DNA of 64,000 nt from Heterotrichella gracilis. Taxonomy: Eukaryota > Sar > Xanthophyceae > Tribonematales > Xanthonemataceae. Below are positions 4,185 through 59,806 of this stretch, piece after piece. The stretch is taken from assembly GCA_032358255.1 (NCBI GenBank), contig JAULBX010026496.1:166214-230213 (forward strand), in the 5' to 3' direction. A program made the position numbers and the translations under genes. The stretch's first letter is position 1. The number at the start of each line of letters is the position of its first letter. A model generated the notes under the pieces. It saw only the letters and a list, made by a program, of their open reading frames with translations, was not told the DNA's origin and did no database searches.

Positions 4185-6826
4185 CTACGCCTTCCACGCA
4201 AAAACGTCCACCACATCCTCTGCCAGACCCGACATGGGAGCATCCCTGTCCAACACAAAGTCAGGCCCGCTGAAATCGTTCTTGCTCACGTGGTACCCCG
4301 CTAGGGTAAACAGCTGCAGGGTGCGCGCAGCCTTTGCCCGCTCAGTCAGCCACAGCTTGACCACAAAGTAGGGTATCCCCGAGTGCAGCAGGGTGTGGTT
4401 CCCCCCCTCCAGGATCTGTGATTCGTACCCCTCTGTGTCCATCTTCACCATCCCGATGTTCATGGTGTCCAAGGGGGCCACGTTATCCAGGGGGAGGACC
4501 TCGTCCAAGCGGCTGGTCTGCACGTGGTTCTTGACTCGGAAACCATCCGGGATGTGGCCTGTCATCTGGTCCACGCAAAGAGAAATAAGATGAGAAAACA
4601 CGCAAATGATTGGATGGATGGCGTCAGTAAATAGGGTTGCAAGTGGAGCCTGTCCTAGGACATGCACGTTACTCCTTATGTGGCGCCTACATTATTACTA
4701 ATGTAAGTCCGGGACATTATACACAACTGCTATCATGTTTATTACTGTCCAAATACAAGGTACCAGCAGGAGGACTTTAATACATCACGTGTGATTTTAA
4801 AGCCCTCCTGGTATCAGCAACCCATTGGCAACAATCACTTGCGAAACATTTCTGCCTCAAAAGAGAGGATGCTTGACGGGCAAACAATCCAAAATAGAAT
4901 TTAAAAATAACCAAGCCAGAACAGGTTGTAGGCAGTCCCCATCTCCCCCACCTGGTCATCGCAGGCTGTGCGCGCGTCCGCGTGCTTGTTGGTGTGTGAG
5001 TACATAACGCACTCTGCACTGCGGTCGCCCAGCGCCTTGTTGACCAGCACGATGTGGTGCGCAAAGTCTGGGTTGAGGCACAGCGAGGAGCGGAACATCA
5101 TCTCGTTGTCCACCATGGGCTCAAAGGCTATCACCTGCAGGGCGACCATCGAACCGATGTCGGAAACCGCGTAAGCAGAGCCGGGAGGCAAACAAATGGC
5201 GCGCGTTTGTACGCCAGAATGTATTGGGTTGCGTTGCATGCGCTCCAGCTTCACAATCTGTAAGCTAGATGTACTGCTGGAATGCACTGCTAGAATGCAC
5301 TGCACTGCGTTGCATTACATTAAATGCGCAGAAAAAAAGAGTCTGGGTTGAGGCACAGCAAGGAGTGGAACATCGTCTTATTGTCAACCATGCGCTCAAA
5401 GGCAATGAGCCTAGGGGAGGGAAACACATTCAAAAGTGCCGGACCGCCAAGGGCATTGCCTGGTGGTGGCGTAGGCTTGTGAAAGGCTGCAGAATGCAGT
5501 GTCACTGATGAATACATTACTTAATAACCCCAAAATATTTTACCTTGTATCCCACACTGGCCATGGACAGCGAGAACCAGCCCGTGCTTGCGCCAATGTC
5601 GAAAAAGGTGACGTGCTGCGGGGGCAGGCTGTGCGCGGCCGCATACTTGGCCAGGGCCCCCTGCATCTTGTGCAGCAGCGGCACCTCTGAGCTCCCTTGG
5701 AGGAGGATGTCTGATGAGGTGGCGTCGTTGGAGTCGTACACATACATGGTGAAGGGCTGGCTGACGTTGGGTATGAGGATGGGGTGGCGGTCCAGGACCA
5801 GCTTGTAGTAGGGCGGGGGGCGGCGCTTCACCTCGGGGAACACGCTGCGGCAGAAGAGAACAAACGAGAACCAATTGAACTTAACATATTTAGAATGTTT
5901 ATTTTATTATTATGATATAATTGTAGAGCCTGTCTTTGATTGTGCTTCATTTGAGTACAAATATACGCAGAAATAGCTAAACAGTTACACTACGGAACTG
6001 TTCTCAAACAGGCGCGCAAGACATTAAAACGAAGATGAAGGTGGTGCCCCTCGCTCACACTACCCCTAATGCCCATTACCTGTGGCAGCAAACAGTTGCA
6101 CCTTAAAGCCTACACCTTAGACCCTAGACCCTTACCTGTGGCAGTAGAAGTTGGGCTGCGTGAGCGCGTCCCTGAACAGCTCGGTGTGGCAGTTGACGTT
6201 ACACCCTAAACCTAAAACCTAAACCCTGTTAACCTACCCCCTCGACCGTTACCTGTGGCAGTAGAAGTTGAGCTGCGTGAGCGCGTCCCTGAACAGCTCG
6301 GTGTGGCGCAGCACGCTCAGCCATTCGTGCTGCTTGGCCACATGCCGGTGCACAACGTGCTGCGCGGCTGCGTCCCGAATGCTGATGGCCGCCTTGGTGG
6401 CGTTCACGTGGCGCTTCTGCAGGGAAAAATAAATTAGTTGATGATTATTTCAATACATATATTATCAAATATAATGTAGTTGCGCAGCCTGTCCTTGAAC
6501 AGGCGCATTTGTTGAGGAAATGGGGATAGCGAAGGAAGGGGAGTTTCCCTCCCCACCACCACCATCACCCAGAAGGGGCATCGCCCTCGTGTCCATTACT
6601 TTCCCACCTGGAGAGACAGGCCCTGAGCTGCCGCGGTCTCTCGATCCTTGGTCAGCTTGTCGATCTGCGTGCGGTTCCCCGCCAGCATCTGGTCATGTGC
6701 GCGCGCAAGGTCTTCGATGGTCTGCGCCAACCTGCGCCCCCGGTGGGGCAGGTGTGCTGCGCTGCCAGCTGTCAGCAGGCATGTGAGGAGGAGGTGGGCG
6801 AGGAGGGCGGTGGTGGCGGCTGGCAT
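4185..6826 (-). CDS. FkbM-family SAM-dependent methyltransferase with N-terminal signal or anchor
   Basis: Five exons: 6826-6608, 6416-6253, 5844-5544, 5134-4952 and 4565-4185. All phases agree and give 415 residues. Residues 1-24 are hydrophobic (MPAATTALLAHLLLTCLLTA), a signal peptide or anchor. A helical spacer follows. The methyltransferase core begins near residue 200 with VTFFDIGASTGWFSLS (SAM-binding glycine loop), then VIAFEPM (motif II acidic residue). The last exon has MVKMDTEGYESQILEGG, typical of Methyltransf_21 (FkbM). These enzymes usually O-methylate sugars or lipids. With an N-terminal signal a Golgi or secreted glycan substrate is plausible, but this is inference. Two introns contain decayed partial copies of the adjacent exon (see repeats). 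Confidence 0.85.
5338..5410 (-). repeat. Echo of methyltransferase exon 4 within intron 3
   Basis: The minus-strand sequence reads IAFERMVDNKTMFHSLLCLN. It parallels the start of the real exon 4 (5134-5060), IAFEPMVDNEMMFRSSLCLN, with several base changes. There is no continuing exon after it. It is a partial duplication rather than a used exon. Confidence 0.8.
6131..6192 (-). repeat. Echo of the 3' end of methyltransferase exon 2 with its splice donor
   Basis: This matches 6251-6307, the end of exon 2 (TELFRDALTQLNFYCH), almost base for base, including the following GTAA donor. CCCTAAAC-like repeats separate the two copies. The exon end and donor are therefore present twice in tandem. Confidence 0.85.
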
Positions 6827-8764: not shown

Positions 8765-11664
8765 ATGCGGCGCGCAGCCCAAGCAGCGCACAGGTGCCTG
8801 GCCGCCACCTGGCAGGCGCACCACCACCCCGCCCTCCCCTTCACAATACCCACCGTATCACCCCCTGTAGCGGCGCTCGCCTGCTGCCCCCACCTGGCGC
8901 ATGGCTTCGCCACAGATTTCAAGGTACCATACCTCTTGTGCAAACCGCTTGGCAAGGGTTTGTTTGCTGTGCAAAAATCCTTCCCATTCTTTTGAAGCAC
9001 TTGTGACCGTTGCACACCCCACGTACAGCCCTTCTTGGCCCTGTGAACCCTCTGTGAAACCCTCACCCTTGTGCATCCAACCCTCTGGAAACCCTGGCGG
9101 AACCCTCTGGAAACCCTGGCGCGACCCTTGTGAACCCCTTGGCTGCAGTCTGCGCTCTTCAGCGCCCCTGCCCACTCCCTTGCCACCAGCGTGCCGGTTG
9201 AGGTGCCCACCCAACAAGCCGCTTCCAGCTTATGGCAAAGGGGGCTGCTGTACGTGGCTGGCTACTACAGCAAGGAGAGCAGGCTACTGAGAGGTGGGTT
9301 TAGGGTTTCTGCGTGGCTATAAGGGTTTGTAAAGGTAGAGCAGGCTGCAGACAAAACCCTAGACAACAGGCTGCTACAGCAAAGGAGAGCAGGCTACTGA
9401 GGGGTGGGGTGTTGCATGGCTGGGGTTTTCGGTATGGTTGTGGGGTTTTGCATGGCTGCAAGGGTTTGCGTAGCTTCTGGTAGGGTTTTGCATGGTTGCA
9501 GGGTTGTGCCAGCATCATCTCATTGAGTTTCACACGTGCTGTTAGTACACCGTCAGGCATGAATGTTGACTGGCACATTCTTGCACAGTGCTTGAACTTT
9601 GAGTTTTTGTAATGCTATTTGTAACGTAGGACTTTCATGGCATGGCCCACCGATGACCTTCAATGTGTACTGTCGCCTGCACTCAAGTGCCAAGAGCCTC
9701 TACGTAAACCCTACACCCAAAAGCTAAACCCTAAACCCTAAACCCCATTGCTGTCCAGGTGCCAGGAGCCTCTACGCTTAGACCCTAAATCCTAAAGCAA
9801 AACCCTAAACCCTGATCCGCATTGCTGTCCAGGTGCCAAGAGCCTCTACGCTTAGACCCTACATCCCAAAGCTAAACCCTAAACCCTAAACCCCATTGCT
9901 GTCCAGGTGCCAAGAGCCTCTACGCTGGGGTCACAGACCAAGCCACAGACCCTAGGTTGTGCGAAGGTGAGGACAACATACACTGTAACCAGGGGAGGAA
10001 CAAAATGTTCACCAAAACGGCATGCGCACCCATTTCATTACCAGCTGACCCCCCATCCCCCACTTCCCAACCCTCGCCCAGCCCTCGCCCAACCCCCATC
10101 CCCCACCTCTCGCCGCGCTGCACCCGCCTGCCCCTTCCCTCCACCCCCACCCCCATTCCTATCTCATCCCCATTACCATCCCCCTATTCTCCCCCTTGCA
10201 GCACTGCACCTGCCCGCCACCTTCCCCTCCACGCACGCCCTGCTTGTGCTGCACCTGTGGCTGCTGCTGGTGAGGCTGCGGGAGGAGGGGAGCGAGGGGA
10301 AGGAGATGGGCCAAATGATGTATGAGATGTTCACGGATGATCTGGAGCTGAGAGTGCGCGCTGCGGGGGTGAAGGTAGGGTTTCTGGCGAAGGTGTTCGC
10401 ATATCTCGCGGTGGAAATCCCATGTGCATATTCCGGGGTGGTTACCAAAGTGCATATCTCCTTACCCACTACCCTCTCACCATGCATGACCCTGACCCTG
10501 CTGTGTGCAGGTACGCATCAACAAGCAGCTCACTGAGCTTGAGAAGATGTTCTACGGGAGCTGCATGGCGTACGACAAGGTGCGTGGTGCAACCCTAAAC
10601 CCTGAACCATAGACCCTAAACAAGTTGCGCGGTGCAACCCCTCTTTACCTCCTTGGGTGCACTTGTGACACAGCCCCTTGGCATGCTGGGCGACCTTGTA
10701 TGTGCCTCACTGGCATGCACACTCACCTATTCACAACACCCAGCTGCGACGCTTTACAATACTGGGAAGTGAGTTGGCAACATGGCATTCACACAGCCCA
10801 GCACAGCACAGCAGCATCTGGCGTGACATGGCATGCGTTAGTCAAGTCACATACAGTCAACACAGCCACATGGCATTGCTCCGCATGGCAGTTACACCAA
10901 TTGCATCGCAGGACATGCGCAATATGCCCTCACTTGAATCCACATGGCGCGTTAAGGGGGATACATGTGGTGCAGGGTTTGCGCGGGGTGGAGAAACTAT
11001 GCGAGGCCCTTAAACGCAACTTGTACATAGCTTAAATGCTGCTGGCGCCACATGCCATGCACATGGCGCATCAGGCGGAATACTCGATTTGATGTAATTG
11101 GTATACTATTAGGTATTGGGATATTTGGTTATGATTACTATGATTTTTGCCGCAGGGTTTGCGCGGTGAGGAGGACCTGTGCGAGGCCCTGTATCGCAAT
11201 GTGTACACAACCGACAGCGGTCCGGAGGGGAAGGCGGCGGCCAAGGTGCTAGAGCGATACGTGCGCAGGTGGGAAATACTATCAAAAGCAGACATTTAGG
11301 TCTGTATGTAACAATGGGGAGGTGTGGGTAATACATACCTAGGGTTTGTGCAACGAGTTTCCGGGTAGGATATAAGCAAACCAATGACGTTTTAGGGTTT
11401 TGTGTTGCCTGTGCACATGGGCGCGGCTTTACTGTCCCTCTTCAAGCGCATCCTGCCTTGACTTTGTATTGCCTCCCCTGCATTCACATAATGCTCCCCC
11501 CTTCCCCCATCAATACCCACCCATCCGGGGCCATTTCAGCTCCCTGTGATTCCCTCGGTTCTTGATTCCCTTCCCTGTGCAGGGAGCTAGCCTGTTTGGC
11601 CAAGACCGACTCCCGGGCGGTGATGGAGGGAGCGCTGCGGTTCTCAGCGCTGCATGCGCAGTGA
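8765..11664 (+). CDS. UQCC1: Ubiquinol-cytochrome c reductase assembly chaperone (UQCC1/CBP3 family)
   Basis: Seven exons: 8765-8923, 9149-9293, 9907-9966, 10202-10374, 10511-10579, 11156-11268 and 11583-11664. They join in phase to give 266 residues. The N-terminus (MRRAAQAAHRCLAATW...) is Arg/Ala-rich with no acidic residue for about 50 positions, as in a mitochondrial presequence. The chaperone domain contains GYYSKESRLLRGAKSLY, then LHLPATFPSTHALLVLHLWL, a long helix through MMYEMFTDDLELRVRAAGVK, and KQLTELEKMFYGS. These fit PF03981 proteins, which bind newly made cytochrome b and help assemble complex III in the mitochondrion. Exons 2, 3, 5 and 6 and the 3' end each have nearby partial duplicates. 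Confidence 0.88.
9335..9408 (+). repeat. Echo of the UQCC1 exon 2 end
   Basis: Positions 9371-9408 repeat the end of exon 2 and its donor (GCTACTACAGCAAGGAGAGC onward, 9268-9300) with a few changes. A shorter fragment of the same sequence lies near 9335-9348. The surrounding intron is rich in AGGGTTT-type repeats. Confidence 0.8.
9687..9923 (+). repeat. Tandem array of ~74 bp units: splice acceptor + UQCC1 exon 3 start + telomere-like repeat
   Basis: The motif GTGCCAAGAGCCTCTACG starts at 9687, 9759 (one change), 9833 and 9907, so the spacing is 72, 74 and 74 bp. The last three copies are preceded by CATTGCTGTCCAG, a good splice acceptor. The first 17-18 bases equal the start of exon 3. The rest of each unit is CCCTAAA-like repeat. 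Only the last copy continues into the coding exon (9907-9966). Confidence 0.93.
10970..11032 (+). repeat. Echo of UQCC1 exon 6
   Basis: The sequence starting GGTTTGCGCGGGGTGGAGA reads GLRGVEKLCEALKRNLYIA and then a stop. It parallels the real exon 6 (11156 onward), GLRGEEDLCEALYRNVYTT, and is preceded by a GTGCAG acceptor. The stop makes it a poor exon, so it is a decaying duplicate. Confidence 0.82.
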
Positions 11665-13377
11665 GCCACCTACCGTAGGCGATATGGTCCAGCCCATTCT
11701 GGTCCCTCGCAGCGATGAATTTGCAACACATGTCACAGCTGCCAGTGGCCCACATGGGTGCCATAGCAGGGGGCTCTTACTATCCGGACACCCCTCAAGT
11801 CTGCTAGCTTCAGGGCATTCCACCGCGGCCAACCCCCCTTGATGATGGATGGGACTCCAGGCATATTCAGCGCTCCATGCGCAGCGACCCACCTCAGACA
11901 ATATGGTCCACTGGAGCTGGCAGCCCACGTTGGCGCTCATGCCACCCCTGCCAGTGACCCACAGTCGGGGCCATCGGGTGTGTGCCAGTGGCCCCTCGCT
12001 GGCCAGACAACCTTATCCTGAGCGCTCACGGTGTTCCACCATGATCATCCCATTTTGCCATTGTTGTGAATTTGGTATCCCAAGGTCTTACACCAAGGCT
12101 CAAACCCTGGTGGTACAGTGTTTTGCTTGTCTGCTTGACCAACTAGCGACCAGCCTCTCAGGCTGGGTGCGGTGGCTCTGCCCTGGTGTTGACGTCAGCC
12201 CTTTGGCTTGCACTGCAAGGCTTGCGCCCCATAGCTCGGTGCTTGTGTGTTCCCTTTGCTCAGCAGAAGAGTCTTCCTTCGTAAGGGCCCCTGCACCTTT
12301 GATGGTGCATGACCCCAGTCTGCGACCCGCTCCACACCTTGCACAAGCCACTGGCGCTGTCACTCCAAGTTGGGTCCGAGATCACAGCCTAGGCATTTGT
12401 AACATCCTTTGCCTGTCGGACGGTTTTTCCGCCTAACGTTGGTCAGTTCGCCATTGTAAACAGTAACAGCTTGGGCAAGTTGCGCAACATAATTTCTTCA
12501 AGCCAATTCAATCGGCAGTGCCAACGGGCAGTGTAGCTTCACCTGTGACAGGGACTCCCCGTGCAGCACAATGTGCGCGTGCGTGTTCAACATGTCATGG
12601 CACATCATTGATGGCTGGCACCCTATAGCTAACTTAGGGATGCATGAGTCATTGCAATAACTACAGGTCACTTGAGTGAAGGGAAAAGAACATATTGGTG
12701 TTTAACAACCTGGATCAATATCCATGATGGTTGTTTATTTGCTGTTAAACACATGAACATTGTATGCAACTTAAATTGTGGTGGGTAATTTAAAATGTAC
12801 CGCATGTCTTGTATCCACACGACAGCTGCAAGGAATGCCAAGTATCAGCAGGGATTTCAAAGAGTCCGGATCAGATGCGTGCCTAAATGGTTGCCCAATG
12901 GGTAGCCCGGCTTCGGGTTCCCAAAAAGCCAAATCATAAATAGAAGTGCGCAAACGTTCTATGCAGTATAGAATAAGCAGCTAAAATGGGTCTCAATTGT
13001 CATTCTTAGAGAGAGAAAATTGAACAAGACCACTTTGCTCCTGTGGCCCCGTAATTACTGGTGTGCGCTCAGAGTTCAGGGTTTAGGGTTTTCGGCTTGG
13101 CAGCCGCTGCCTTGAGCACTGCTGCCATTGCCTTGGCTGCCCCCCCCTTGGCCGCCACACCCTCTTTAGAGTTCACCGTAACAACACCTGCAGGAACTAC
13201 CGCCACACCCTCTGTATCGTCTACCGCCATACCCTCTTTAGGGTCTACGGCCACACCCGCTGTAGGCTTTACCGCTACACCCGCTGTAGGCTTTACCGCT
13301 ACACCCGCTGTAGGCTTGACCGCCACACCCGCTGTACGCTTTACCACCACATCTTCTCTAGAGCCTACCGCCACGCC
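11665..13377. other. Convergent 3' flanks of UQCC1 and the GT34 gene
   Basis: No gene is recognised. Near 11869-11905 lies a diverged copy of the UQCC1 3' end (compare 11655-11692, GCGCTGCATGCGCAGTGAGC...ATATGGTCCA). The stretch 12000-13050 shows no recognisable exon. From 13060 to 13377 the sequence is the repeat tail described separately. Confidence 0.5.
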
Positions 13378-16400: not shown

Positions 16401-17607
16401 CACCTGTTCCGCCACCTTGGCTTGGCTGGCGGCCAGGGCCAGTGAGGCGGCCTCAAGGGATGCGCGCATGGCAGACAGGCGGGCAGTGAGGCCCTGGTGG
16501 TGGCGCTGGGAGGCGGTCACCTGGAGAATAAGGAGAATCAAGGTGGATTCTGTTCATAAGCTGTTGGTATTAGGAAGTTTTCCAAATGAACTTCCGTCTG
16601 GGAAGTTAATCAGAGTAGGTTGCAAATGCAGGTGCTGGCAAATGACCTCAATGGTAGCAAATTACCATAATTAGCAATTGCCAGGGGTATTGAGGCGGGC
16701 GATTGGCCCAATTAATAAGGTACAGGGTGCAATCAATTCTCAGTCAACATGCACTGGTGTCAACATGCACTGTTGTAAGGGAGGTGCATCCAGCATGAAA
16801 GCAAGGGGGAAACCTGGTGCCACCAGCTCACCAGTTCTGTGCCGTCTACCGATAGTTTGGCATGCGCAGCCTGCAGGAGCTCCTGCAAAGGGGAGTAAAA
16901 ACCATCACACAAATGCAAACAAGTAAATTAGCCATGTATACTCCAAAAGATATCATCCGAGAGCGGGGTGAATAGACACATAGCTGGCACATCATGCACA
17001 GCCGCATTCCGCGGATGAGGAATCGGCGCATGGAGTGCTGTAAATGAAGCGGCATCCTACACCCACTGACAAGTGGGTGCACGGCCTTGCAGTGGGTGTG
17101 CAACGGAACACAGAATGCAAACGCAAACCCTAGTCCCTAAACTCACATTTTCTGCCTGCGCCCTGCGCAGCTCAGCGGCTGCATGGTCCAGAGACACACG
17201 CAGAACCTCCTCCTGCAGAGGGGGGAGAGAGTGGGGGGTAAAATGCCAAGGGATGTAACGAGAAGGGAACCACCCGGGTGTGAGCATAGAAGAGGCATTG
17301 GCAAGCATCTAGCCATTTGCTCAAAGCATGAGTAGCTAGTAGGGTGTGAGGCACGCTCGTGGTTTTCAAGGGGTAAAGCGGCGGTCACAAAACCCTGAAC
17401 ATACTCTAAACCCTACACGCACCCTCTCCAGGACCTTGGACAGCAGCCCCGCAGTGGCCAAAAAGCCCTTCACATACCCTAACCATAGAAACCCTATCCA
17501 TACCCTACACTTACCCTCTCCAGGACCTTGGACAGCAGCCCCGCAGTGGCCAGCATGCACACCAGCAGGGTACCCAGTACCGCAGGCGCAGCGGAAGACC
17601 ACGCCAT
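13378..17607 (-). CDS. GT34-family glycosyltransferase (GMA12/MNN10 type), type II membrane protein
   Basis: Nine exons are supported: 17607-17515, 17212-17147, 16882-16832, 16520-16302, 16005-15895, 15626-15374, 15109-14850, 14628-14387 and 13924-13378. They give about 613 residues. A small extra exon near 16140-16098 is possible. Residues 8-27 are one membrane segment. Residues 28-190 are Ala/Glu/Gln-rich and probably coiled coil. The catalytic part runs from IAIMVISSDL through NKRDYATLHGYHFYVEEQ, WHKILAL and the DxD motif VDLDTIIM, then DCNGINAGSLVLR, EQASLMFW, PQRLINAY and QPGDFVMH. These are GT34 hallmarks; the family includes xyloglucan xylosyltransferases and yeast MNN10. A Golgi wall-polysaccharide role is inferred. 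The tail is Pro- then Gly/Asp-rich and ends within a 24 bp repeat. Confidence 0.88.
17412..17463 (-). repeat. Echo of the GT34 exon 1 end with donor
   Basis: This is nearly identical to 17510-17555, the codons for ATAGLLSKVLER plus the splice donor and a GTAGGG tail. The real donor is GTAAGT; the echo has GTGCGT. CCCTAAAC and ACCCTA repeats lie between and beside the copies. Confidence 0.9.
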
Positions 17608-21177: not shown

Positions 21178-21179
21178 TA

Positions 21180-21833: not shown

Positions 21834-24492
21834 TCATGCAGGCACGATGTAGGCCTCTGTGATGTGGCAAGCCCTCACCACCTGCTCCTCGTCATCAGCA
21901 GCAGGCGCCTGACCAAGGGGGGAGAGCGGAAGGCAGGGTGACATGCTGAGTAAACAAGCAGGGAAGGTGATACTACCCTTGACAGAGGGGATTATACATG
22001 CAACTATGGTTGCTTCATTTTTGGTCCCCCTGCCCACGAGGGCCATGTTTGCATTGACGGGCGGCTGCCAAATCAAAAGGTGGCATGCCCTACAAAGGTT
22101 GATCATGTCCCCTAGAAGGGTTTGCCACGCACAGCAGGCCGACAAACCCTAGAGGTTCCCTGTGCCTTTGTGTGAATGCATAAAACCCTTGCATGGCCTG
22201 CTCCAACTCTAGTGATCGACCCGGCCATGGGCAGCTATGCTAGGCATTGCAGGTAGGCAGGGGAGCGCACACAGTAAAGCACAGCAACAGGGGAGAGAGA
22301 GCGTACATGCCACTTGGTGAGGATCGTGGTTGCCCCACGCTGCGGTGGCACCAGCCCCTGTGGCGCGCGGCGAAGCAAAACCCTGTGGCTCACCACCTCC
22401 TGCGCCAGTGCAGGCACACAAAGTGGCCAACCACAGTACACACACACACCCGCACCCACACTCCCACACACCACACCCACACACATATGTTTGCGGATGC
22501 AACATCTGTGCATGCATAGAGGACACGCACACACACACACGTTAACACATATTTGCATCTGCTGAAGCCCATACTCGATCACATGCACACGCCCAATCAC
22601 ACCTGATCACACGTACCCCCCCACTCCACCACATCACATGGAAACACTTCGTCACACGCAAATCATCCGGCGTGATCACTTGCGCGTGCCCCGCCACAAC
22701 CCCAGCACGCACCTGCCAAGCGGGTGGCAGGAAGTCCTTGTGCCCCCACTCCTCCACCCCCTCCCCCTCCCTGGGCCCCCCTATCACGGTGTGCTTGGTG
22801 GCTATGGCTGTCAGGCGCAGCTGGCGCAGCAGACGGGATAGGGCGGTGGCGGCCGCGGTGTGAACCCTATGTAGGGTCAAGGGAGGCCCCAACCTGGGGG
22901 GGAAGAAGGAAGGGGGAGTTAGATCAGCCTTTGGGTCTGTGCATTTGGTTTTGTGGGCAGGGGGTTCTTTGCTGCTGGCAGGGTTGAGAAGGCGGCACTT
23001 CAAAGCCTGTGTCCCATCTCACGAGCAGGGTGGTTTACAGGATGGAAGGGAGGGATAACAGGAGGAAGGGAGAAGGGGAATGTACATGTCCCTGGGAATC
23101 ATGTGCATTTATACCTGGTAGCGGGGGCATACCTGAAATGCGCCTGCAATGTGGGGTTCCCCGGCCTCTCCTGCCCCCCTGATTGAGGCCCCTGCTTCAC
23201 CGCCCTATCCAGCCAATAGAACGCCGCCACATTGTCAATGAGCAGCAGGCGCAGGGGCTGGCTAGGGTTTCCTGGCTGAACCCTAGTGAGCAGCGCCAAA
23301 ACCCTAGGGGCAGTGGCCAGGAAGGCCAGGAGGTCAAAGCTGCTGTGGCACTGCACCTGCAGAAACCCCGGGCAAGGGTTTTGGCAGGGTTTTGATGGGC
23401 CGTTGATGAGTATCACGTGTTTATTTGCTGACAAACTTGCTGGTCTGCCCACTCAGGGCTCTAGATCGTGCGGATTGATGTGGATGATTCAACAACCTTT
23501 AGGTGTAGGGTTTGTAGTGCAATGCAACCCAACTGGTTCACACTTGCAGATGTTGCAGGCAGCGGCCAATTTGTATGAAGCAATTGTCTCACGGTGCAGG
23601 AAAGCGACAGGTGGCATGCTCCATGCGAAACAGTGCCACATGTAACCAAAGGATACATGCAATCTCATGCGCCAAAGATTAAAGGTCCTGACGCACCACG
23701 TGGAACCTCTCCAGGCACTCACTCACTACCGCCTCTGCTTGCTCGGGGCTGGGGATGCCGCTGCGGGCAGATAGAAAAGGTTTTGGATTGTGTGGCAGCC
23801 TCAAAGTGGCCAAAGGAGTAATACATGCAACGAAAGGGATGTTCATGCATCGTGCATTGCAGGGGTGGTGGCATGCAGCAGCGTTCGTTTTTTATGCAGC
23901 GGCTTGTCCATATGTCAGCCATAAAAAGGTGAGCTATGTCATTCCAGATGCAATAGAAAGATGATTGGGTTGCAGAAACCCTAGCTGGCACGTACCCTCG
24001 CTGCTCTTGCCATGTGACGTGCAGCCGTGCATTCAGGATCTGTGGGAGCATGGGGGTATATCAGGGACCAACCATCTTTGCAGGACCGATAAATCAAAAC
24101 ATTTGATCCAATTGCAGCCCACATCACCACTGACCAGTGTTCATGCTCAACCAACATGTGGTTCGTAATCAGCGGTTAGAATAGTATAATTATATTTTAT
24201 CAATTGCATGTGTGTGGTCAGTAGTGGCATTGGGCCTGCACATAGCTGCACTTACTCCTACACTGGCATAGCTGACGTCCAGCTGTTGAAATTGAGTAGA
24301 GGTGGTAAGAATTCAGGTAGCCTGGTGCAAGGCAAACATTTCACAGGCAGTTGAGGGTTCATGTGCTAACCTGGACCAATCGTAGGGTGTCAAACTTGGC
24401 ATCCAGGTCTAGCAGCACCACATGCTCTGCGCGGGGGGGGGGGGGGGGGGGGGGGGGNNNNNNNNNNCCCCCCCCCGCCCCCCCCCCCCCCG

Positions 24493-24566
<74 letters not shown>

Positions 24567-37400: not shown

Positions 37401-39012
37401 TTATATATGTATTACTTGGTAAGGGTTGTTACAACCAGTCGATGGCCTTGCCGTAACATATCATTCAAGGTCAAGTACCTATGGACGGTCCACGAGTCTT
37501 GTATGCTCCCGTCCCTCCTTGATTGTGCTGTTTATTGCAAACCTGAACCATTACTGCTTTGATTTGCGTACATTGTGACTGTGTTTGCTGCCTTTGACCT
37601 CAATCAAGCACTGGTTTGAACCCTGGCCCTTGCCCTGCAGCTCAATGCTCCACATGGCACCTGCTGAGTGGCAGTCACCTGGCGGGGGTGGCCTGTGGAC
37701 CCAGCTCTGCAACCTTGACGCCATCTCAAAAGCGCTACGTGACCGAGGTAAACCCTAAACCTGAACCCCAAACCGAAGGAGGCATGTTGCGGGTTGCAGC
37801 CGCTGCGGATGTTGCCATGGCTGTCCTGTCAGGCCTACAATTGCCCTTGTGTAAACCCCTGCTAAGGGTTTAGGAATCCATGGCCACGGCCATACCCCTG
37901 CGTCAGGGGTAGGGTCTAGGGTTTTTGTGAGGCCCATTTTTTTCAAGGACTGAATCTGCACTCACTCCTTTGCAGTGCCGGTGGACCCCAACAACACACC
38001 ATCAGTCCAGGTGGTGCGCAGCTACCCCGCGGGCAAGGTGGACTACTCTCACACCCTGTGCGTGTTCAGGGTGGCTCCAGACCTGAAGGGAAAGGTGAGC
38101 AACGTGTCTAGGGTTTAGGATTTGAGGTTCACCCCTAAATATTAGGGTTGGGGAAAATGGTGAGCAACATGTGTCGGGTTTAGGATTTAAGGTGCAAACC
38201 CTACTGAAAGGGTTGATGGAAAAGGTGAGCAAATTGATGCTCTTGGTGCTATTACAAGGCACGTGCACACCACTCTGTACACATTATTGCTTGCAAGGCA
38301 AATTGTCGCACTTTTCAGGTTCCCAGAGCGCCTCGGAACTCTTGCCTGCCCCCTTGGTGCTCACTTCCAGGCCATGCACACAACCCTAAACCCTAGACCT
38401 TGACCCCTGAATTAAACCCCTTCTCTTCCTTCGTACTTAGGTCCAAGCCATGCATGCATCCAAACTTTGAATTCTTACCCTACACCCTACACCCTCCTCT
38501 CCCTTCGGTACTCAGTTCCAGGGCATGCGCGCAACCCTAGACCATACACCCTAAACCCTAAGCCATGAACCCCCCATGCTCAGGTCCAAGCCATGAACGC
38601 AAGCATGCAACGCCATGTGGCCCTGAGGGGGCAATCCAATGTCGGTCAAACCATTGTCATTGATGAATTAGCCGGATCCTTGGCTGACCAAAGCATATCC
38701 AGTGATGAGCAACACGCACCCGCTGGGGGCCTAAATACATCCGGTGGGGTGCAAAACACATCCGGTGGTGGCCAAATCGCACCTGATGGGGTGCGTGACA
38801 CATCCGGAGCAAGCCCCGCCACTGAAGGAGAAGAGAAGAAGATCAGCAAGAAGGAGAGGGTGTGCAGCATGTGTGGGGTGCCCAAGGGTGGAGACGTCGC
38901 CCTGAAGCTGTGCGCGTGCGGGCTGGTGCGGTACTGCGGGAGCGAGTGCCAGCATGCGCATTGGCCGCAGCACAAGCAGGCCTGCAAGGAGGCGCGTGCT
39001 GCGCAAGCTTAG
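34490..39012 (+). CDS. Large MYND-type zinc-finger protein with one in-frame TAG
   Basis: Secure exons: about 34490-34681, 35063-35444, 35634-36294, 36673-36837, 37145-37338, 37641-37747, 37976-38094 and 38584-39012. From 34681 onward the phases all match. The product is about 750 residues. Most is helical and Leu/Ala-rich with no domain I can name. The C-terminus is a MYND finger: CSMCGVPKGGDVALKLCACG followed by LVRYCGSECQHAHWPQHKQAC, with all zinc ligands present, preceded by a Gly/Ser/Thr repeat linker. MYND fingers mediate protein-protein contacts. The N-terminus is unresolved. Exon 36673-36837 contains an in-frame TAG at 36784-36786 while the flanking codons read on smoothly (LLAFLN, stop, ALVGELEPVLAPNHHLK). 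This may be a nonsense allele, sequence error or readthrough. Confidence 0.72.
34868..35015 (+). repeat. Two echoes of the MYND-gene exon start
   Basis: 34868-34946 parallels 35056-35133 (CTCCTCCACCTCCTTCCT... GACACCCT...GGTAAGGGGG...CAAGGACACCCT) with scattered changes. A second shorter copy at 34977-35013 keeps the GCATGCAAGGACAC part. The flank CCCGCGAGGCGAAAT... near 35030 also repeats 34845. Confidence 0.82.
38094..38235 (+). repeat. Tandem echoes of the MYND-gene splice donor region
   Basis: The string GGAAAAGGTGAGCAA plus a TTTAGGATTTGAGGT tail occurs at 38089, again near 38152-38195 and in short form near 38217-38230. The real donor is the first copy (GTGAGC after 38094). Confidence 0.75.
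38361..38600 (+). repeat. Tandem array of ~74 bp units: acceptor + last MYND-gene exon start + telomere-like repeat
   Basis: Variants of GTCCAAGCCATGCATGC begin at 38365, 38441, 38515 and 38584, a spacing of 76, 74 and 69 bp. Copies two to four follow TTAG or TCAG. The last is the real exon start. The rest of each unit is CCCTAAA/ACCCTACACCCT-like repeat. The design matches the UQCC1 array at 9687-9923, though the exon sequence is unrelated. Confidence 0.85.
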
Positions 39013-39962: not shown

Positions 39963-42266
39963 TCACTTCCCCTCTTTGCTCCTCAGCCACAGCGCTATGC
40001 CCCCGAGGTTGGCCAGGCTGTGTGCCACTATGGGCACTGCCAGGTCTTGGGTGGCAAGGTACAGGCCACCATACAGCACACCCACAGCAGTTGCCCATGT
40101 GGCAAATGCCAGGTTCCTGCCCCCGCTGTTGTGGAGGAGCCCGAAGATGACGCCAGCCACCAGTGCGCCCCGCCTGCACACCACACATACGGTGGGACTG
40201 AATGACAGTCACATGTGATGCATCAGGTAAATTACTAATAATTATTAGTTAGACATAAGTGGTGACGCCAGTGCGCCCGGCCTGACAGACACAGGCAGTG
40301 GGGTGCAATCATGGTCACAATCACAATCAGCAATGAAAACTGGGTCCACAAGAAATAAAGACAAAAACAATCACAGTCACATTCAACACTACCGCCACCA
40401 TTATCCACGCCACCGCAATCACAATCACCGCAAACTCTTTCAAACCGGGCGGCGACAAAGACTATGGCATATTTCAAATGACATTTGCGCCGAGTATCTG
40501 GCAGGGCATTATGGGCACCATCGTGGTGGGCGTTTGGACGTGAACGAAATAACTCAATAATATTTTTATTCTTTTAGGACTTCGTAAGTAATAAAGAAAA
40601 AATGGGAAAGTCATTTGGCCACCTACCAGTCAGGGAGCACAGCAGGCATAATCCCTCCCCTGAACAGCGCCTCCTCACTCACGCCGGGCAGGATGGAAAC
40701 CCATAGGTAGTCCACAGGGGAGAGGGGGGAGAGAACCTGCAAGGGAGGAGAGAGCACAATGAATACCGTGCGCACTTTCAGTTTGTTTTTGGTTTGTATA
40801 TGTGATTGTTTTATTTTGTGAAATGCTGCCCCCTGCTCCTGGCTCAGCGTGCTGCCCTTTGTTCGTAACAGTCGTGGCGAAGACAGTACTCAACCTCATA
40901 CATTACAATGTGCAGCAGGACAGCCACGCTGTGGCACAACCTTGCAACCCGCCCCACCCCTCACACACACACACACCACCCTCATCACCTGCCTCCCCCA
41001 CACCCACCTGCTGGTTGGACTTGGTGCTTGCCTCTGCAAAGTCGGGCCACAGGTGTTGGAGCAGGGCGCGTGCTGCTGTGACTGCCCCCGCACTGCCCAC
41101 AGCCACAGCCACATGCCACAGCTCAAAGGAGGGCCCTGCAGGCACATGTAGGGTCACAGGAGGGTTCTACAGGCTTGGTCAGGCTTGCATAGTGTTCTGC
41201 AGGCATTACTAGGGTTTCAAGAGGATTGTACAGGTGGGGTTTTGGGAGGGTCAGGATATTCCTTCTCGGCGCCGCTCATACAGGCATTTGCCAGAATTCA
41301 TGTTCTGGGTTGCGGAACGCATGAAAAAAAAATTGCAGCAAGAATGCCGCCATGCAGAATGCAACTATATTTCACAGAATTGTTCCCTGGCGCACCCACC
41401 TTGCAGCAGCGCCTGCACAGCTTCCTGGTCCGCCCCCAGTGCCCCGCTGATTGGCCCCGCCCCCACCCGCAGCGCCACACCGGCGGCACCCACCAGAAGG
41501 GAGGTCTGGACACAGGCGCGGAATACCTGCAGGGGGTGGGGGGAAGAGGCATGAATGGATGAGTGGGTCCAGTGAGGTCGTATATAAATAAAAATTTAGG
41601 GTTGGGGTTCAGGGGTACACCCATTCAGTAGTTTGCGCCCTGCATGTCAACCACTGAGTGCAATGCCCACAATGAGGATACATGTGTCACAAACAGCCAC
41701 CAGTACATAGGTAGTACAAGCAGTGGCAGGACAGGGCTGGTTGGCAGAAGGCACTTAAGATTGACAGCTTACCTTGCTGTACTGCTGGAACGCATGTAAG
41801 CAGTCAGTACTGTGTCACAAACAACCTCAGCAAAGCCCCTGTGTCCATGGCACAACACACACACACATGCGCACCTGATCCCGGCTGACGGATGGCAGGT
41901 CCCTGCTACCTTGTGGGGATGCCCCGGCTAGCTGCGGGGATCCATTTTCCTGCTGCCCTGCCCCTGCAGTGCCCTTGGCTTTCTTGGGTGGTAGCGCCCC
42001 AAACCCTACACCCCGCAAGCTACTGCTGGCGGGGGCTTCTTTTCCAAGGATATCTGGGGTGCTGCCAGCTGGCCCACGCCCGCCAGGTGTCGCATCCTCA
42101 CTGGTGGCAGCAGACGGCGCACTGGCGGTGGAGGTGGGTGCAGGGGCGTGTGACTTGACAGTGGGTGGCCTAGGGCTCGAGCTGCTGGTGCTGGTGCTGG
42201 TGCTGGTGCTGGTGGCGAGTGGGGAGTCAGCGGCTGGTGGAGAGGAACTGGGCTGGGTGGCACTCC
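39963..42266 (-). CDS. CPBP-family intramembrane metalloprotease (5' end not resolved)
   Basis: Exons 42266-41875, 41526-41400, 41135-41008, 40736-40627 and 40173-39963 join in phase to at least 255 residues. The first is a Ser/Thr/Pro/Ala-rich low-complexity stretch (about 130 residues) that begins at a splice acceptor, so at least one more 5' exon is missing. The protease core has the EExxxR motif in VSEEALFRGG, the first His motif in FGLLHN, and the last conserved motif in PIVAHSLANLGG. These fit the CPBP/Rce1-like family of membrane proteases; some members are plastid proteins in plants. Substrate and location are unknown. A possible upstream exon overlaps 42530-42819 on the minus strand but could not be fixed. 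Confidence 0.75.
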
Positions 42267-53019: not shown

Positions 53020-53520
53020 GGAGCCATCACGAGGTGAAGGCAATGCCCATGGGCTTCCTCATGCAGGGGCAATCGCTGGGGAAGGTAGGGCGCAGGGCAT
53101 ATTTTTTCCAACTTACATTGATTTTATGCCTGTTCATAGAATTTAAATGTCCCAGAGTACGGTACACTTTGAGAATGCACCACTAAATGGCACAAGTGGA
53201 CAGGCGCCTGCAGCCGGGGAACGGCATTCTGGGGTACCAAGTTCTGTTTGCAAGCATGCAAGACATGACCGTGCCCTTAACCCGTAAGCTTCTTCTCGGA
53301 GAAGATCACCACCATCGATGACCCCGGCTGCAGCATGTGCGGGGCTGCCCCGGGCGCTGGCGTGGAGCTGCGCAGGTGTGCGGGCTGCGGCACCACGCGC
53401 TACTGGGAAAAAGGGTCGCCAGAGGTACCACTGGGCATATTTTCCGCAGTAGCGGACCACAAGAAGGCGTGCAAGGTGGCACCCGCAAAGCAGGTGGAGG
53501 TCTCCCGGAAGGGCAAGTAG
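53020..53520 (+). pseudogene. Degenerate MYND zinc-finger gene fragment
   Basis: Exon-like pieces occur at 53034-53084 (VKAMPMGFLMQGQSLGK, acceptor and donor intact) and about 53216-53281. The stretch 53298-53520 encodes KITTIDDPGCSMCGAAPGAG and ELRRCAGCGTTRYW, and ends DHKKACKVAPAKQVEVSRKG with a stop. The first zinc pairs (CxxC, CxxC) and the final Cys match MYND. The middle Cys/His ligands after RYW are replaced by an unrelated stretch with a CCGCAG acceptor-like end. No upstream body is recognised. It is probably a truncated copy related to the 38.9 kb MYND end. Confidence 0.5.
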
Positions 53521-53534
53521 AAAGTGCTGCTGTT

Positions 53535-54519: not shown

Positions 54520-57500
54520 ATGGCTTTTACGTTACAGTCGGCTCGTGGCACTGTTTCGTGCAGCTCTGCACACAGCCGGAGCTCCTCACGGCCCAGCAGT
54601 TCCGTGGGGGCATGGCAGAGCAGCTTCACTCGTGGCCAACTGCAACACACATACCTGCAAGGTGAGCCAGGAACGCAAACCCATACCCAGTTTATCGAAC
54701 CCTTTAAGCTCGGTATATTGCATTAAGAACCTCCTCGGCAGATAATTTGTATGCTGTCAACATGGGTGGGTGGGACCAGGTTACTAAACCCCTGAATACT
54801 GATCCCTAAGCCTGGCCTGCCTAAGGAGTTGCCCACAACTTGTTTTGTGCCACACTCTACAGGATCTGCACTGAAGGTGAATGTGAGGTCTGCAAGGGTG
54901 GCGTGTGGCGCACTCAACGTGCAGAGCAACCTCTTTGAGCGCATGAGCAGGATTGTGCGCTCATATGCCAACTCTGTAGGTAAGAGATTAGCTTAGCTAT
55001 GGTTCACAACCACCTTGAGCAGCTTTCCTGCCGTGGGAGCCAGCGCACCTCTGCCAAGGTGCAGGCATGGTCAGGCATGGCCGTGCCTGGTGGCAGCACA
55101 GCACCTCCTCGTGACCCTGCTTCATGCCATGCCTGACCACCGTAGCTACTTGCGTACTAGCTAAGTAACCGAGTGTCTGGGTTCTTGCTTTCCATCATAT
55201 TGACAACCTGACTGAGCCCAACCATAAACCAACGGCCAAGGTTGGACAACCACTGACGTCCAACGGAACGGGTGGTGGCCGACAACCTGCTGCACAACAG
55301 TGGTTATTGCAAGCAGCTGGTTGTCTCCACCCTAAGCCGTAACTTAGAACCCTGCGGTGTTGTGACACCTGGCTTTTTGTGCTGTGTGCAGTGAGTGCTG
55401 CCGAGGATCCAGAGAAGATCCTGGAGCAGGCAGTAACGGACATGCAGAATGACCTGATCAAGATGCGCCAGGCATCGGCACAGGTGCGTCGCCGGGGGGG
55501 TACTAGGATGACAGGGCTGTGGTAGTGGTGATCACGGCACACCAGACGCAGTGCCGCTGCCAACCTTGTCCACTCCTCCGATGCCCATTTGACAGCATGA
55601 CCCCTGCAAACCATGCATCAGAGCGGTATGAACTTTGTGCTTTCCGGCAGTACCAGCGCACTAAGAGTGTTGACTGTGACTGGTTATTAAATAAGCAAAG
55701 TGAGCTGATGTTGACCCACTCATGCTTACCTTCTCCCCCGCAGGTTATGGCCTCCCTGAAGCAGATGGAGAACAAGTACAACCAGGCGCAGCAAACAGCG
55801 GTACGCAGCCTGCAGGCATTTTCCATTCCATGTATGCAGTAAATATATCTAAGAAAGGCTGAACACAACCCCATGCATAATAACCGTTGGTGGAAGTTCG
55901 TCAGCCAACACCCATGTACTCTCCACCTTAAGGTAAAATGTAATGCTTTTAGCTGTCTGTCTGCTGGCCAACAGCGTAACATGACTCACATAATAGGACT
56001 ATGAGACTGCGGCAGGTCGTTACTGTGTCCGTCAATGTGGTGGGAGTGTTGCTGGTCTATTGCAATGACCCGTCCATGTACATCTGCTGCCTCAGTGCGC
56101 TCAGCAGATCTCCATTCACGTGCCTGCCCATCAGGCATTTCATGTGACCAGTACGTGAGCCAATGGTGGGATGGGGCATGGGGCAGGTCGCTGTACCTCA
56201 ACTCTGGCTTGTCCCTAGACCGTAAACCCTAAAATTCTGAAGCCTAAACCTAAGCCCCGTTGTGCAGGACGACTGGTACCGCCGCGCCGAGCTTGCCCTA
56301 AAGAAGGGTGATGAGGAGCTGGCAAGGGAGGCGCTGTCTAGGAGGAAGGCGTACGAGGTGAGGGGAGAACCCTTGGCTAGGGTCCGAGTGGCAATAGGTT
56401 GTGCCAGATGCTAGAAGGGGCCAGCAATGCATGGCCTGGGGCCATTAATGGTGCATGCATTCCATTTGGGTCACGCATGGGAGTATTTGTGTGAGGAGCT
56501 GGCAAGGGGGAAGCGAGGGACCAGGGGAGAGAAGACATTGAGGCCAGGTAGTCACAGGTGGCAGTCTAGGGTTGAAGGGGCAACCTGGTCACTAGGTAGT
56601 ACCACATGACGAAACAGGTGAGGGGCTACTTTTGCTAGGGTTCAGATGTGGCCGTGAGGATGGTACCACAATTCTGGGATTGGTCTTTAGGGTATGGTGG
56701 GCGCAAGGGATGCACATTGGTGTCGCCCTGGACGCGGGAAACTGGAAAGTGGCAAAATGTTGCTCACCGGAACAGGTGTTAACAACAACTTGCAATGCCA
56801 TCGGCCTGAAGGATCAGGTGGAGGAGCAGGGCAATGCAGTGGACATGCCGATCGGCAATGCGATCCGACACCCATCTCCTATTCCCAGAACATCCCTGGT
56901 ACCCTGTGTACCCCCCCCCCCCCCACACCACCCACATGCACACCCTACCCTACCCCCCACAGGATAAACCACCCACCCACACGCACACCCTCCTCACCCC
57001 CACAGGACAACGCCAACGGCCTCAGGGCCCAGGTAGAGCAGCAGCGCAAGGCTGTTGACACGCTGATCGGCAACACGCGAGCGCTGGAGAACAAGCTGGC
57101 TGAGGCGAAGAGCAAGAAGGACACGCTCAAGGCCAGGGCTATCAGCGCGAAGACGTCCAAGCAGGTGCGCCGATGGTGGTGGGGGTGGGGGTGGTAGTTG
57201 TGGCGGTGGATGGGCCTTGTCGGATGGGCGTGGGGGACCTGGTGGGAGGGTGAAATGGCGTGCGTCTCATCTCATGATAGCAGAAACTTCGCAGGCACGC
57301 GCAATAGTAGTGAAGGCGCGGCTGTGATTGGCGCTCCAGCCGCATCATATAGTGGGCTGCACACGTGTCCCTGAACACCGCCCACATGGTCCTGGATGAG
57401 CGAAAGAGTGGTATGGGCTGGATGCACACCCAAAGATGCGCATTGCCAGGTCAACTTGTCAGGTCCCTACACCCAACCCCAACATGACACATACTGCCTG

Positions 57501-58257
57501 CCTGCCAGGATTAGCATGCACATATGGCTGCACACACTTCGGTACACCACAGTCATTCAATGTAAGCATTTAAACCATGCACCTCATTTCCGCAGATCAA
57601 CGAGATGGTCTCTGGCATCAGCACCGGCGCCAACGCGCTGAGTGCTTTTGAGAAGATGGAGGAGAAGGTGATGGCCATGGAGGCGGAGAGCGAGGCAACG
57701 CAAAAGGTGAGTGGGTGGGAGTGGGTCGGAGGGTGGATGGAAGCGATGGTGCGGAGGGTGAGGCTGTGCATAACTGGGGTTCAAATGCGGACACGCCCCC
57801 GTCTTGTTGTACCCACCCTTTCTGATCCGCTTGGCTCATTACTATCTGCACTCGATGCACATCCTACGGACCCCCTTGTACTCACAAGTACCACCCTCGG
57901 TACCCTCCTGCACACCGCATAATCCGCATTTTTGTATCAAACTTTACTATTGTTTTATTCTTTCTATTGAAATGGAATAGAAAGTTCTTCTGTAAAGTAA
58001 TAAATGAAATTAAAAAAGGCTATATTTCTTGGAATGTACCCTTATTCCCCCCCACACAGATGCTCCCCGGCAGCGATGAGATGGAGGCAAAGTTCCTGGC
58101 CCTGGAGAGCGGCGGCGTGGACGACGAGCTCAGCAAAATGAAGGCGCAGCTTGGGGCGGGGTCCAGGCCAAGGGCCATGCTGCCCGAGGGCCGGCCACTG
58201 CGCGACGCGCTGGATATGGAGATGGAGGACCTCAGGCGCAGGACTGGCAGCAACTGA
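54520..58257 (+). CDS. VIPP1: VIPP1/IM30 (PspA family) plastid membrane-remodelling protein
   Basis: Eight exons: 54520-54661, 54863-54979, 55392-55483, 55744-55800, 56268-56357, 57006-57164, 57596-57706 and 58060-58257, giving 321 residues. Residues 1 to about 60 are Ser/Arg-rich with few acidic residues, like a plastid transit peptide. The mature part starts [17 protein letters not shown] (helix 0 of PspA/VIPP1), then [20 protein letters not shown], and long charged helices through [34 protein letters not shown] and [20 protein letters not shown]1 forms rings and rods and maintains thylakoid and inner-envelope membranes. Exons 5, 6 and 8 have partial duplicates nearby (56490-56640, 56812-56880, 58330-58460). 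Confidence 0.92.
56490..56640 (+). repeat. Echoes of the VIPP1 exon 5 end and donor
   Basis: GAGGAGCTGGCAAGGGGGAAGC near 56493 parallels 56313-56335 of exon 5. Near 56614 CAGGTGAGGGGCTAC...TTGCTAGGGTTC parallels the exon 5 donor and intron start (56355-56385). Confidence 0.7.
56812..56880 (+). repeat. Echo of VIPP1 exon 6
   Basis: This encodes [22 protein letters not shown] against the real exon 6 [22 protein letters not shown] (57021-57086). About 70 bp are alignable, and coding similarity then stops. Confidence 0.85.
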
Positions 58258-59806
58258 GGGGCGGTCGATGGTATAGGGTCATCCAGGCGGCTGGTCCTGG
58301 TGCAGCTTCCTTGAATCCGGTTTCTGATACTGCGTGGCGCAGCCCAAGGAAGCCACAGTAGGGGCCGGGGTCAAAGCCAAGGGCTGTGCTGCCTGACGGG
58401 CTGCCACAGTGCGGTGCGCTGGAGATGGAGGAGCGGAGGCGCAGTGTGGGGGGAGCTGAGCGGGGCGTGGGGTAGTAGAGTGAGGCGGCCGGGGTTGTGT
58501 TGTGGTGGTGGGTGATGATTGGCGCAGGATGGGGGGAGGGTGAGCGAATGAAGTGCAGTTGGGCCCTAGGCAATGCCGTTAGGCAGGGCAGCAGGCGTGA
58601 CTGCGTTTTGCCAGTAGAGGGCAGAATGAGGGACCACTGTGCACCGTAGGGATGTGCGCCAGAGGCAGGTTGGTCAGGCACGGGAACGTATGTTGAGCAG
58701 TCAATTGGCAGTGCAACTGCAGCACAAGGTTTCAGAGACTGTGCATGCTTTGAAAGAGGGGTTGGGATGATTGTGGGTATTCATCTTGGTAGATTGGAAA
58801 AACTTCATTGACTTGGGTGGGTTGCTCTTCTTGAATGCTGGGGGTGCTTTATGTGTTAGTGCCTCAAACTTGTCCAATGTGATGCTCCCGTGTAGTTCGG
58901 GCAGGATGAACTCGTAACGTCTTATCAAAATGATGTGCACTGAGTTTGCTGTAGACTAGGCTCGGATTGACCTCCCAGCGTGTTGGTAAAGGAAGCCAGA
59001 AGGGAACGCTATCATGCCACACTTTGTCTTATAGGCTGAGGCTGCAGCCTGCACCAGTGGCAGTAGATGTCAATTGTCACGACGTGTACTAGCTCACTGC
59101 CTTCCGTTAGAGCACAATTCAAGGTGCTTAGCACAGGACTGCCCAAAGGCATGCAAGCATGCCGGGACCCCCTTTATCAGCCTTGCTCAAAGCATCAACG
59201 ACACTACGCAAACACACAGCGTCACCGCGCGTCGCAAAACACATGTTGCAACCCATCTGCGTATAAACTATCGCAACGCCTTCATAGGCCATACATTCAA
59301 AACTTTTGGCACAGCAAATCATCCTGACGGATGTACTCCCCTTGGGACTCCCAGCCCTGGCCTACCCCGTACGGTCTCACCTTTCAAATACCGCCGAGCA
59401 CTCAACCTGGCAAGTGAATGACGAACTTTGGAGTGCAACCCACTGGGTTGTGTTAGTTCGCGTGCCCAAAACACAAGGTATCTCCACAACCACAAGGAAC
59501 TGCTTTCCAATGCATGCGTGCATGCATGCATGCATATGGACTTTGAGGGGCAAGGTGCCCGCACAGCCCTGAACTTGTGCTGACGTCTTAGCAATAATCA
59601 TATAATAGCTAGTTACGACGGAGTGTAAGCAACTAGCCCTCTGCGTGGCACAGTGTGTGGGTCCCTTCCTAGAAATGTCGCGCCATCAGAGTCAGGACAA
59701 TACAACTGCCACGATACAACAGGACAACCCGAAATCATTCGTGGTGCAGTCTGCTGGTTCCTGCAGTAGCCCACTTTCTCTGCCGCTATCTGCGGCAGCC
59801 CGAGCC
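58258..59806. other. 3' flank of VIPP1 and upstream region of the F-box pseudogene
   Basis: 58330-58460 is a diverged copy of the last VIPP1 exon (GCCAAGGGC..GTGCTGCC..GAGGG and GCGCTGGAGATGGAGGA; compare 58150-58245). A long alternating ATGC run lies at 59510-59535. From about 59555 the sequence resembles the upstream regions of the other F-box genes (GCCCGCACAG, TGGGTCCCTTCC). Confidence 0.65.

Follow-up and report, generated by a model that had tools for sequence, protein, structure and literature searches.

In the human genome, Pace et al. (2009; PMC2671141) described 824 repair-mediated duplications (RDs), closely linked copies of up to 619 bp with filler at their junctions; four of these had partial exon/intron donors, and in one case an exon was duplicated in the opposite orientation (here and below, statements on published systems refer to the accessible parts of the cited articles). 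We report on exon-end echoes, partial copies of an exon end that lie in the adjacent intron or other flank, in a 64,000-nt stretch of an algal genome (contig JAULBX010026496.1; hereafter the window) and in a larger sample of the same genome. The echoes resemble the RDs (PMC2671141) in close linkage, possibly in filler, in having partial exon/intron donors and in that no constraint was found on the duplicated exon. Unlike the human RDs (PMC2671141), they are direct, occur at 48 of 520 exon ends and show a link to telomere-like repeats. We propose that the echoes are probably the remains of recurrent short local tandem-type duplications in the genes of this alga.

Vaughn and Bennetzen reportedly described, in 2014, small tandem duplications that arise by fill-in of break overhangs. 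Small tandem duplications were again ascribed to this fill-in in 2017 (PMC5730883), and Schimmel et al. (2021; PMC8355091) found that CST, which also fills in telomere ends, guides the overhang fill-in that yields them. The echoes share the direct orientation, the shortness and, apparently, the tandem geometry of such duplications (PMC8355091), but their spacers are often longer, and a fill-in mechanism is suggested for them by analogy. Ma et al. (2016; PMC4974935) described a tandem duplication that spans an intron-exon boundary of an RdRp gene in potato; it crosses one exon edge, as the echoes do, but concerns one gene and a new intron, whereas the echoes recur and showed no new intron. Telomere units inside genes, as found here, are also known from plants, where Gaspin et al. 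(2010; PMC3022908) explained telo boxes by a model in which breaks linked to transcription expose free 3' ends to telomerase. Those lie mainly in 5' untranslated regions and the first two introns, whereas the units found here lie near donors and are tied to local duplications. In two green algae, tandem repeats were densest in introns and more frequent near intron-exon junctions (PMC3887541); that work concerns tandem repeats in general, its main text contains neither 'telomer' nor 'AAACCCT', and copies of exons go unmentioned in the accessible part.

An earlier note on the window had stated that no described system has this form. This was too strong, since PMC2671141, PMC8355091, PMC4974935 and PMC3887541 each describe parts of it, as far as their accessible text goes. 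Exon-end echoes of the same form were absent from the literature searched, which comprised titles and the starts of abstracts with partial coverage. The explanation that we favor is mostly ordinary in kind, namely local duplication, purging and one-sided decay, and what is unusual is the apparent density and the telomere link. The density is judged against printed human counts obtained by another method, and our scan covered one eukaryotic genome.

Exon ends are copied in the adjacent flank

The window belongs to a 68.5-Mb draft assembly of 903 contigs. Outside it we analyzed 25 stretches of 10 kb (L009 to L033; 250 kb), chosen by position within the same genome; all of their contigs came from a list of contigs with a telomere run, and the positions inside the contigs were arbitrary. 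Eight other loci (L001 to L008), chosen by telomere motif, were used to train an exon model (L006 excepted) and are omitted from the later counts. The model converged on the donor CAG/GTRAG and on an acceptor consisting of a C/T tract followed by CAG/G.

In a directed scan, predicted exon ends were compared with the adjacent flank at a main score threshold of 36, with inverted and reversed sequence as controls. In the sample, 50 of 479 exon ends had a copy (inverted 0, reversed 1); in the window, 10 of 119 did (inverted 0, reversed 0). The window controls were 0 at every threshold tried, from 32 to 50, and the sample controls were not empty at score 32 (57 direct, 3 inverted and 2 reversed matches among the 479 ends). 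Exon-end echoes in the adjacent flank are a real observation, which these counts confirm. The earlier note had counted more than twelve cases in the window, a figure that is reached only when weak matches are included (a same-side copy at 13 of 119 ends at a score of at least 34, as against the 10 at 36 or above). Its suspicion that local duplication recurs beyond the window was borne out, because 18 of the 25 sampled loci held at least one exon-end copy.

Orientation gave the same picture without reference to exons. Over window and sample together (314 kb), local self-matches of normal complexity within 1 kb, counted as high-scoring segment pairs (HSPs), numbered 72 direct and 0 inverted; with the eight motif-chosen loci and without L029 to L033 (288 kb), the count was 81 direct and 1 inverted. 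Low-complexity HSPs had been removed from the 314 kb (8 direct, 26 inverted), 25 of the inverted ones falling in a poly-G/poly-C tract at about 24433-24566 of the window. This tract, 25 G with about 99 C shortly after them, is hairpin-like and possibly an assembly problem. After removal of three direct HSPs more than 500 bp apart (two in L032, one in L012), the remaining 69 of 72 collapsed into 54 loci. Identity ranged from 69.6 to 98.5% over the 54 loci, which points to copies of many ages.

When neighbouring stretches were compared, copies were found at 48 of 520 exon ends (inverted 0), in 36 of 952 intron windows (inverted 2) and in only 1 of 249 windows of exon next to exon. Other noncoding DNA gave 49 direct and 21 inverted matches in 4382 windows, so the inverted control was not empty there. 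That introns are hotter than other noncoding DNA was not established (ratio 3.6, bootstrap 0.9-12.0).

Geometry of the copies

The copies are short and close to their source. Match length had a median of 76 bp, and the offset was below 300 bp in 53 of the 54 loci. By distance, copies occurred at 49 of 552 ends at 25-225 bp and at 5 of 549 at 225-425 bp; there were none in the successive shells out to 2.8 kb (0/534, 0/495 and 0/432 ends). Closely linked (<5 kb), short copies, as in the RDs, were therefore what we found, all within 425 bp, and they had the direct orientation of small tandem duplications. Counting the exon part only, 34 copies lay on the same side as the exon end among the 552 ends. 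Exon interiors were rarely matched (1 of 132 tests).

Most copies (42 of 51) crossed the exon edge. The proposal that they include the splice site held to that extent; however, the copied ends comprised 27 of 263 acceptors, 17 of 236 donors, 7 of 40 stops and 0 of 13 starts, and because stop ends are also echoed, the process does not depend on splice sites. In the codon-position and side-rule tests, for which 25 of the first 49 loci (264 kb) were examined, donor-side or 3'-end copies lay downstream in 14 of 14 cases and acceptor-side or 5'-end copies upstream in 11 of 11. All 25 tested exon-edge copies are thus on the side expected for tandem geometry, and the earlier suggestion of template switching as such was not established. 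Nor did the alignments inspected point to intron gain of the AGGT type; they show existing exon ends inside the copies. Spacer homology in tandem register was kept in 13 of 33 gapped loci. Judged from these alignments, the event would be a tandem-type duplication, sometimes with filler.

We envisage that short tandem-type duplications, many of them with a spacer that is eroded or unrelated, recur through the genes. Inside an exon, a duplication would damage the protein and be purged; the near absence of matches between neighbouring exon stretches fits such purging. One that crosses an exon end would be spliced out, or would lie after the stop, so that the message stays intact and the copy survives beside the exon. 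Exon-end copies would also be recognizable for longer, because only one side would decay. By what is established for other systems, their origin may be error-prone repair of staggered breaks, in which overhang fill-in is followed by end joining, sometimes with filler, and telomere-like tracts in the same introns may mark or promote this repair. In line with this proposal, the genome has exons for a telomerase RNA-binding domain, Ku and a family-A polymerase.

Telomere-like repeats near echoes and donors

Rotations of CCCTAAA made up 1.9% of noncoding bases versus 0.47% in shuffled sequence. A search of the 903 contigs for telomere runs gave 834 exact 21-base matches, partly overlapping, and from their positions well inside contigs we infer that telomere units sit away from chromosome ends (interstitial).

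Exon ends with a heptamer nearby were echoed more often (28 of 160) than those without (19 of 360; odds ratio 3.8, p 2e-5), and a scrambled heptamer of the same composition showed no link (4 of 88 versus 43 of 432, p 0.15). The 27 echo-holding introns, among 206 in total, had about three times the telomere-like coverage of length-matched introns without a copy (0.083 versus 0.023 at 200-400 bp, 0.057 versus 0.020 at 400-800 bp). Across the 25 sampled loci, duplication number correlated with telomere-like coverage (rho 0.63, p 0.0008); for exon content, rho was 0.38 (p 0.06).

Of 260 donors, 51 had a heptamer at a distance of 2-40 nt, whereas 189 of 2415 interior windows, which overlap, contained one; the rate at acceptors (30 of 286) was little above that of the interior. 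In the whole assembly, 103 motif matches followed 11,149 CAGGTRAG words versus 9 after 7,042 CAGGARTG words, counts in which tandem runs cause some double matches and bacterial contigs may swell both denominators. The density of the G-strand motif fell from 12.8 to 1.4 per kb between the first and last fifth of introns, whereas heptamers of permuted composition fell only from 15.7 to 6.9 per kb. The heptamers near donors may be scars of repair; alternatively, they, or G-rich tracts close to donors, might serve as splicing elements.

The earlier note had suggested, as one example, that telomere repeats are inserted during repair. At 31 exon-edge loci, however, the heptamer was in both copies in 12, in the spacer in 10 and in none of the parts examined in 11, and where both copies have it, the heptamer probably predates the duplication and did not enter as filler. 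The description of the echoes as often fused to CCCTAAA-like repeats holds as a statistical link, but not at the 11 loci that lack the heptamer. The plain-filler reading held only in part: the spacer had a heptamer in 6 of 23 exon-edge pairs, not clearly more often than random intron segments (p 0.21). Telomere-like coverage of the spacers of exon-edge pairs was 5.1% versus 2.5% in random intron segments (p 0.03), and 15 of 58 of the 20-bp flanks of echoes held a heptamer, against 4.7±2.0. By edge, the heptamer was found at 9 of 27 junctions and at 5 of 27 and 6 of 27 intron-side edges, with 7.4% in random intron segments; since segments of the same introns already reached 14.8%, part of the edge excess reflects introns that are rich in the motif overall. 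The telomere-like repeat appears to be a partner or predisposing feature more than plain filler.

Retention or overproduction at exon edges

In the sample, exactly one of the two copies was at an exon edge in 26 of 41 non-redundant loci, where random placement gave 8.7±2.6 and none of 1000 shuffles reached the observed number. The excess over random placement that the earlier note had predicted was thus seen in the sample but not in the window alone (5 of 13 versus 2.8±1.5, reached by a fraction of 0.143 of the shuffles), and it is the 250 kb of the sample that make it significant. A local null with shifts of at most 400 bp raised the expectation to 13.2±3.0 (0 of 500 reached the observed number). 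Among young pairs, of at least 88% identity, 9 of 17 were at an exon edge versus 2.9±1.5, in a small sample. The exon-end rate was 2.5 times the intron-interior rate (bootstrap over loci 1.6-6.8). By our own arithmetic, one-sided decay alone would give at most about a 2-fold excess, which is within the bootstrap range. Forward simulations that combined uniform duplication with survivorship and neutral decay, run with five parameter sets and with guessed indel and age settings, gave exon-edge shares of 0.24-0.26 (from detected counts) when duplications were placed anywhere and 0.30-0.32 when they were placed near the observed loci.

Several points weigh against short tandem-type duplication followed by retention. 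The observed exon-edge share, 31 of 47 one- and no-exon loci, is higher than every simulated share. The spacer had no tandem-register homology in 20 of the 33 gapped loci, and at L023:7663-7815, a young case in which both copies are labelled exon by the model and which is not among the 31 exon-edge loci, copies 98.5% identical flank a 21-bp spacer unlike its flanks. The copy is on the opposite side at 4 of 552 ends. Pure tandem duplication is too simple in view of these spacers, and pure tandem duplication with erosion as the sole account was rejected on the spacers without homology and on the simulations, which under-predict the exon-edge share. Drawing the sampled contigs from those with telomere runs may inflate the motif-related rates. 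The exon calls are predictions from sequence alone, made by a model trained on the genome itself, and the duplication junctions are placed within one genome. The present evidence does not set break repair apart from slippage or unequal exchange. CTC1 had no match in the genome, but the same search also matched no control genome.

Some of these points could mean that exon-intron edges are true hot spots, at which echoes are over-produced and not merely over-retained. Transcription R-loops, linker DNA, G-rich donor flanks and telomere-like tracts would then raise breaks or repair at the edges. The under-prediction by the simulations, the 2.5-fold rate at exon ends, the excess over the local null and the heptamers near donors all speak for such hot spots. 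Against them, one-sided decay can by itself approach the observed ratio, the simulation parameters for indels and age were guessed, the excess among young pairs comes from few pairs, and acceptors carry the motif little above the interior rate. We regard hot spots as possible, if doubtful; there may be a moderate true preference for exon edges.

Break repair and its alternatives

The tandem-type duplications that we propose may stem from break repair. If the copies arose by ordinary slippage during replication or by unequal exchange at minisatellite-like arrays, neither break repair nor telomere enzymes would be needed, and several loci are indeed head-to-tail arrays with little or no gap; in green algae, moreover, introns have been reported to abound in tandem repeats, which are more frequent close to intron-exon junctions (PMC3887541). 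Yet the spacer was at least 20 bp in a fraction of 0.76 of 29 one-copy-in-exon pairs and was sometimes unrelated at high identity, and the link of echoes to the heptamer (odds ratio 3.8) also speaks against slippage. On balance, we consider slippage rather unlikely to be the source.

A bolder version of break repair is that telomere machinery, either telomerase or a CST-type fill-in, routinely acts on breaks at exon-intron edges and leaves telomere units and exon-end duplications, so that introns would grow from their edges as repair scars hidden by splicing. We think it unlikely that this version holds as stated, and offer it as speculation.

Copy and exon differed in 49 of 488, 53 of 488 and 92 of 491 sites at codon positions 1, 2 and 3, respectively (0.100, 0.109 and 0.187; 25 loci). 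A neutral copy, changing at about 0.10 everywhere, together with synonymous change in the exon, adding about 0.08 at position 3, would produce this pattern, which indicates a constrained exon beside a freely decaying copy and is evidence against both functional alternative exons and assembly error. Echoes that serve as alternative or decoy exon ends are thus very improbable: most copies cross the edge and many retain a splice-like GT or AG, but the coding constraint expected of alternative exons was not seen on the copies at the 25 loci, and echoes also occur at stop ends. The intronic position and the motif common to many introns might suggest mobile elements, introner-like or other, but these hardly come into question, because introners have many similar dispersed copies, whereas both echo loci searched against the whole genome (one of them that at 34837-34947) matched only themselves, and the alignments identify the neighbouring exon as what was copied. 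An assembly artefact is scarcely credible, even in a draft of 903 contigs that apparently includes bacterial ones, since the divergence between copies is 2-30% and follows a codon-position pattern that one would not expect from assembly error.

Echo loci in the window

The earlier note had named seven genes with echoes. Of these, the methyltransferase, UQCC1, the phosphotransferase, the MYND region and VIPP1 were upheld, the GT34 assignment is inferred, and the protease copy is weak. Nine of ten joined gene pieces of the window matched Pfam families. In the FkbM methyltransferase gene (PF05050 in the joined gene), the acceptor (5') end of the predicted exon at 4952-5134 (-) is echoed at 5340-5416 (-), with 86% identity to 5065-5142 and a score of 95 (88% over 67 bp by self-BLAST). 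The donor (3') end of another predicted exon of this gene, 6253-6416 (-), is echoed at 6122-6190 (-), 95.7% identical to 6239-6307, with a telomere-like tract in the spacer. In UQCC1 (PF03981), the acceptor end of the exon at 11156-11268 has an echo at 10972-11027 (+; 82% to 11152-11207), and the 3' coding end has a short, weaker one at 11867-11894 (+; 89% to 11644-11671, score 41); a C-rich match at 10090/10177 was not trusted.

The echo at 17410-17460 (-) is 96% identical to 17502-17552 and corresponds to the donor end of an exon at 17515-17607 that, by its translation, probably encodes a signal anchor. The exon model missed this putative first GT34 exon, but its reading, MAWSSAAPAVLGTLLVCMLATAGLLSKVLER, suits a signal anchor, and PF05637 lies further along the gene, to which the exon and its echo probably belong. 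The acceptor end of an exon at 30143-30489, assigned by PF01066 and homologs to a CDP-alcohol (ethanolaminephosphotransferase-type) phosphotransferase, is echoed at 30576-30624 (-; score 52 to 30465-30514). Upstream of a MYND exon, in a gene without a Pfam match, the acceptor end of the exon at 35063-35444 is echoed at 34837-34947 (+; 80% to 35025-35137), and the donor end of the exon at 37976-38094, also upstream of the MYND exon, has a tandem copy at 38151-38232 (+; 77% to 38088-38167, score 42). The weak echo at 40268-40302 (-; 81% to 40160-40196, score 35) matches the 5' end of an Rce1-like protease exon at 39966-40173 (PF02517). VIPP1/PspA (PF04012) has an echo of the acceptor end of its exon at 57006-57164, at 56793-56858 (+; 79% to 57008-57073), one of its last coding exon in the 3' flank, at 58337-58444 (+; 73% to 58128-58241), and a weak 20-bp match at 56489/56308 (score 35).

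Its proteins place the host of the window among the chlorophytes, that is, as a green alga: the best named matches of the ethanolaminephosphotransferase, among those listed, were from Myrmecia bisecta (48%), Lobosphaera and Coccomyxa. The best 120 of 1488 matches of this protein included no close relative to compare with; the top match was 48% identical, and the highest identity was 51%. Elsewhere in the assembly, two family-A DNA polymerase reading frames that lack introns, 943 and 948 amino acids long (G000:C442:116638-117765 and G000:C111:216815-217945) and contig C1, which exceeds 893 kb yet has only 42 donor-like words listed, suggest the presence of bacterial contigs. At G000:C2:4698-4811, in L001, the donor word CAGGTAAG occurs three times with 53-bp spacing, possibly as a small exon-edge array. 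Near its ends, the window has mutually similar reading frames at 1441-2853 (-), 60085-61497 (+) and 63569-64000 (+), whose starts resemble what we take to be F-box proteins, and self-BLAST showed paired repeats at 1-232/3176-3412 and 59721-59903/62884-63062.

Implications

Each echo is a natural paired experiment, in which a constrained and a free copy of the same sequence stand side by side. With about 9% of exon ends carrying one, the echoes provide a measure of the rates of duplication and decay, and of how splicing shelters insertions. Owing to the link with telomere-like tracts, one can test whether telomere enzymes contribute to ordinary break repair within genes, and whether introns grow from their edges.

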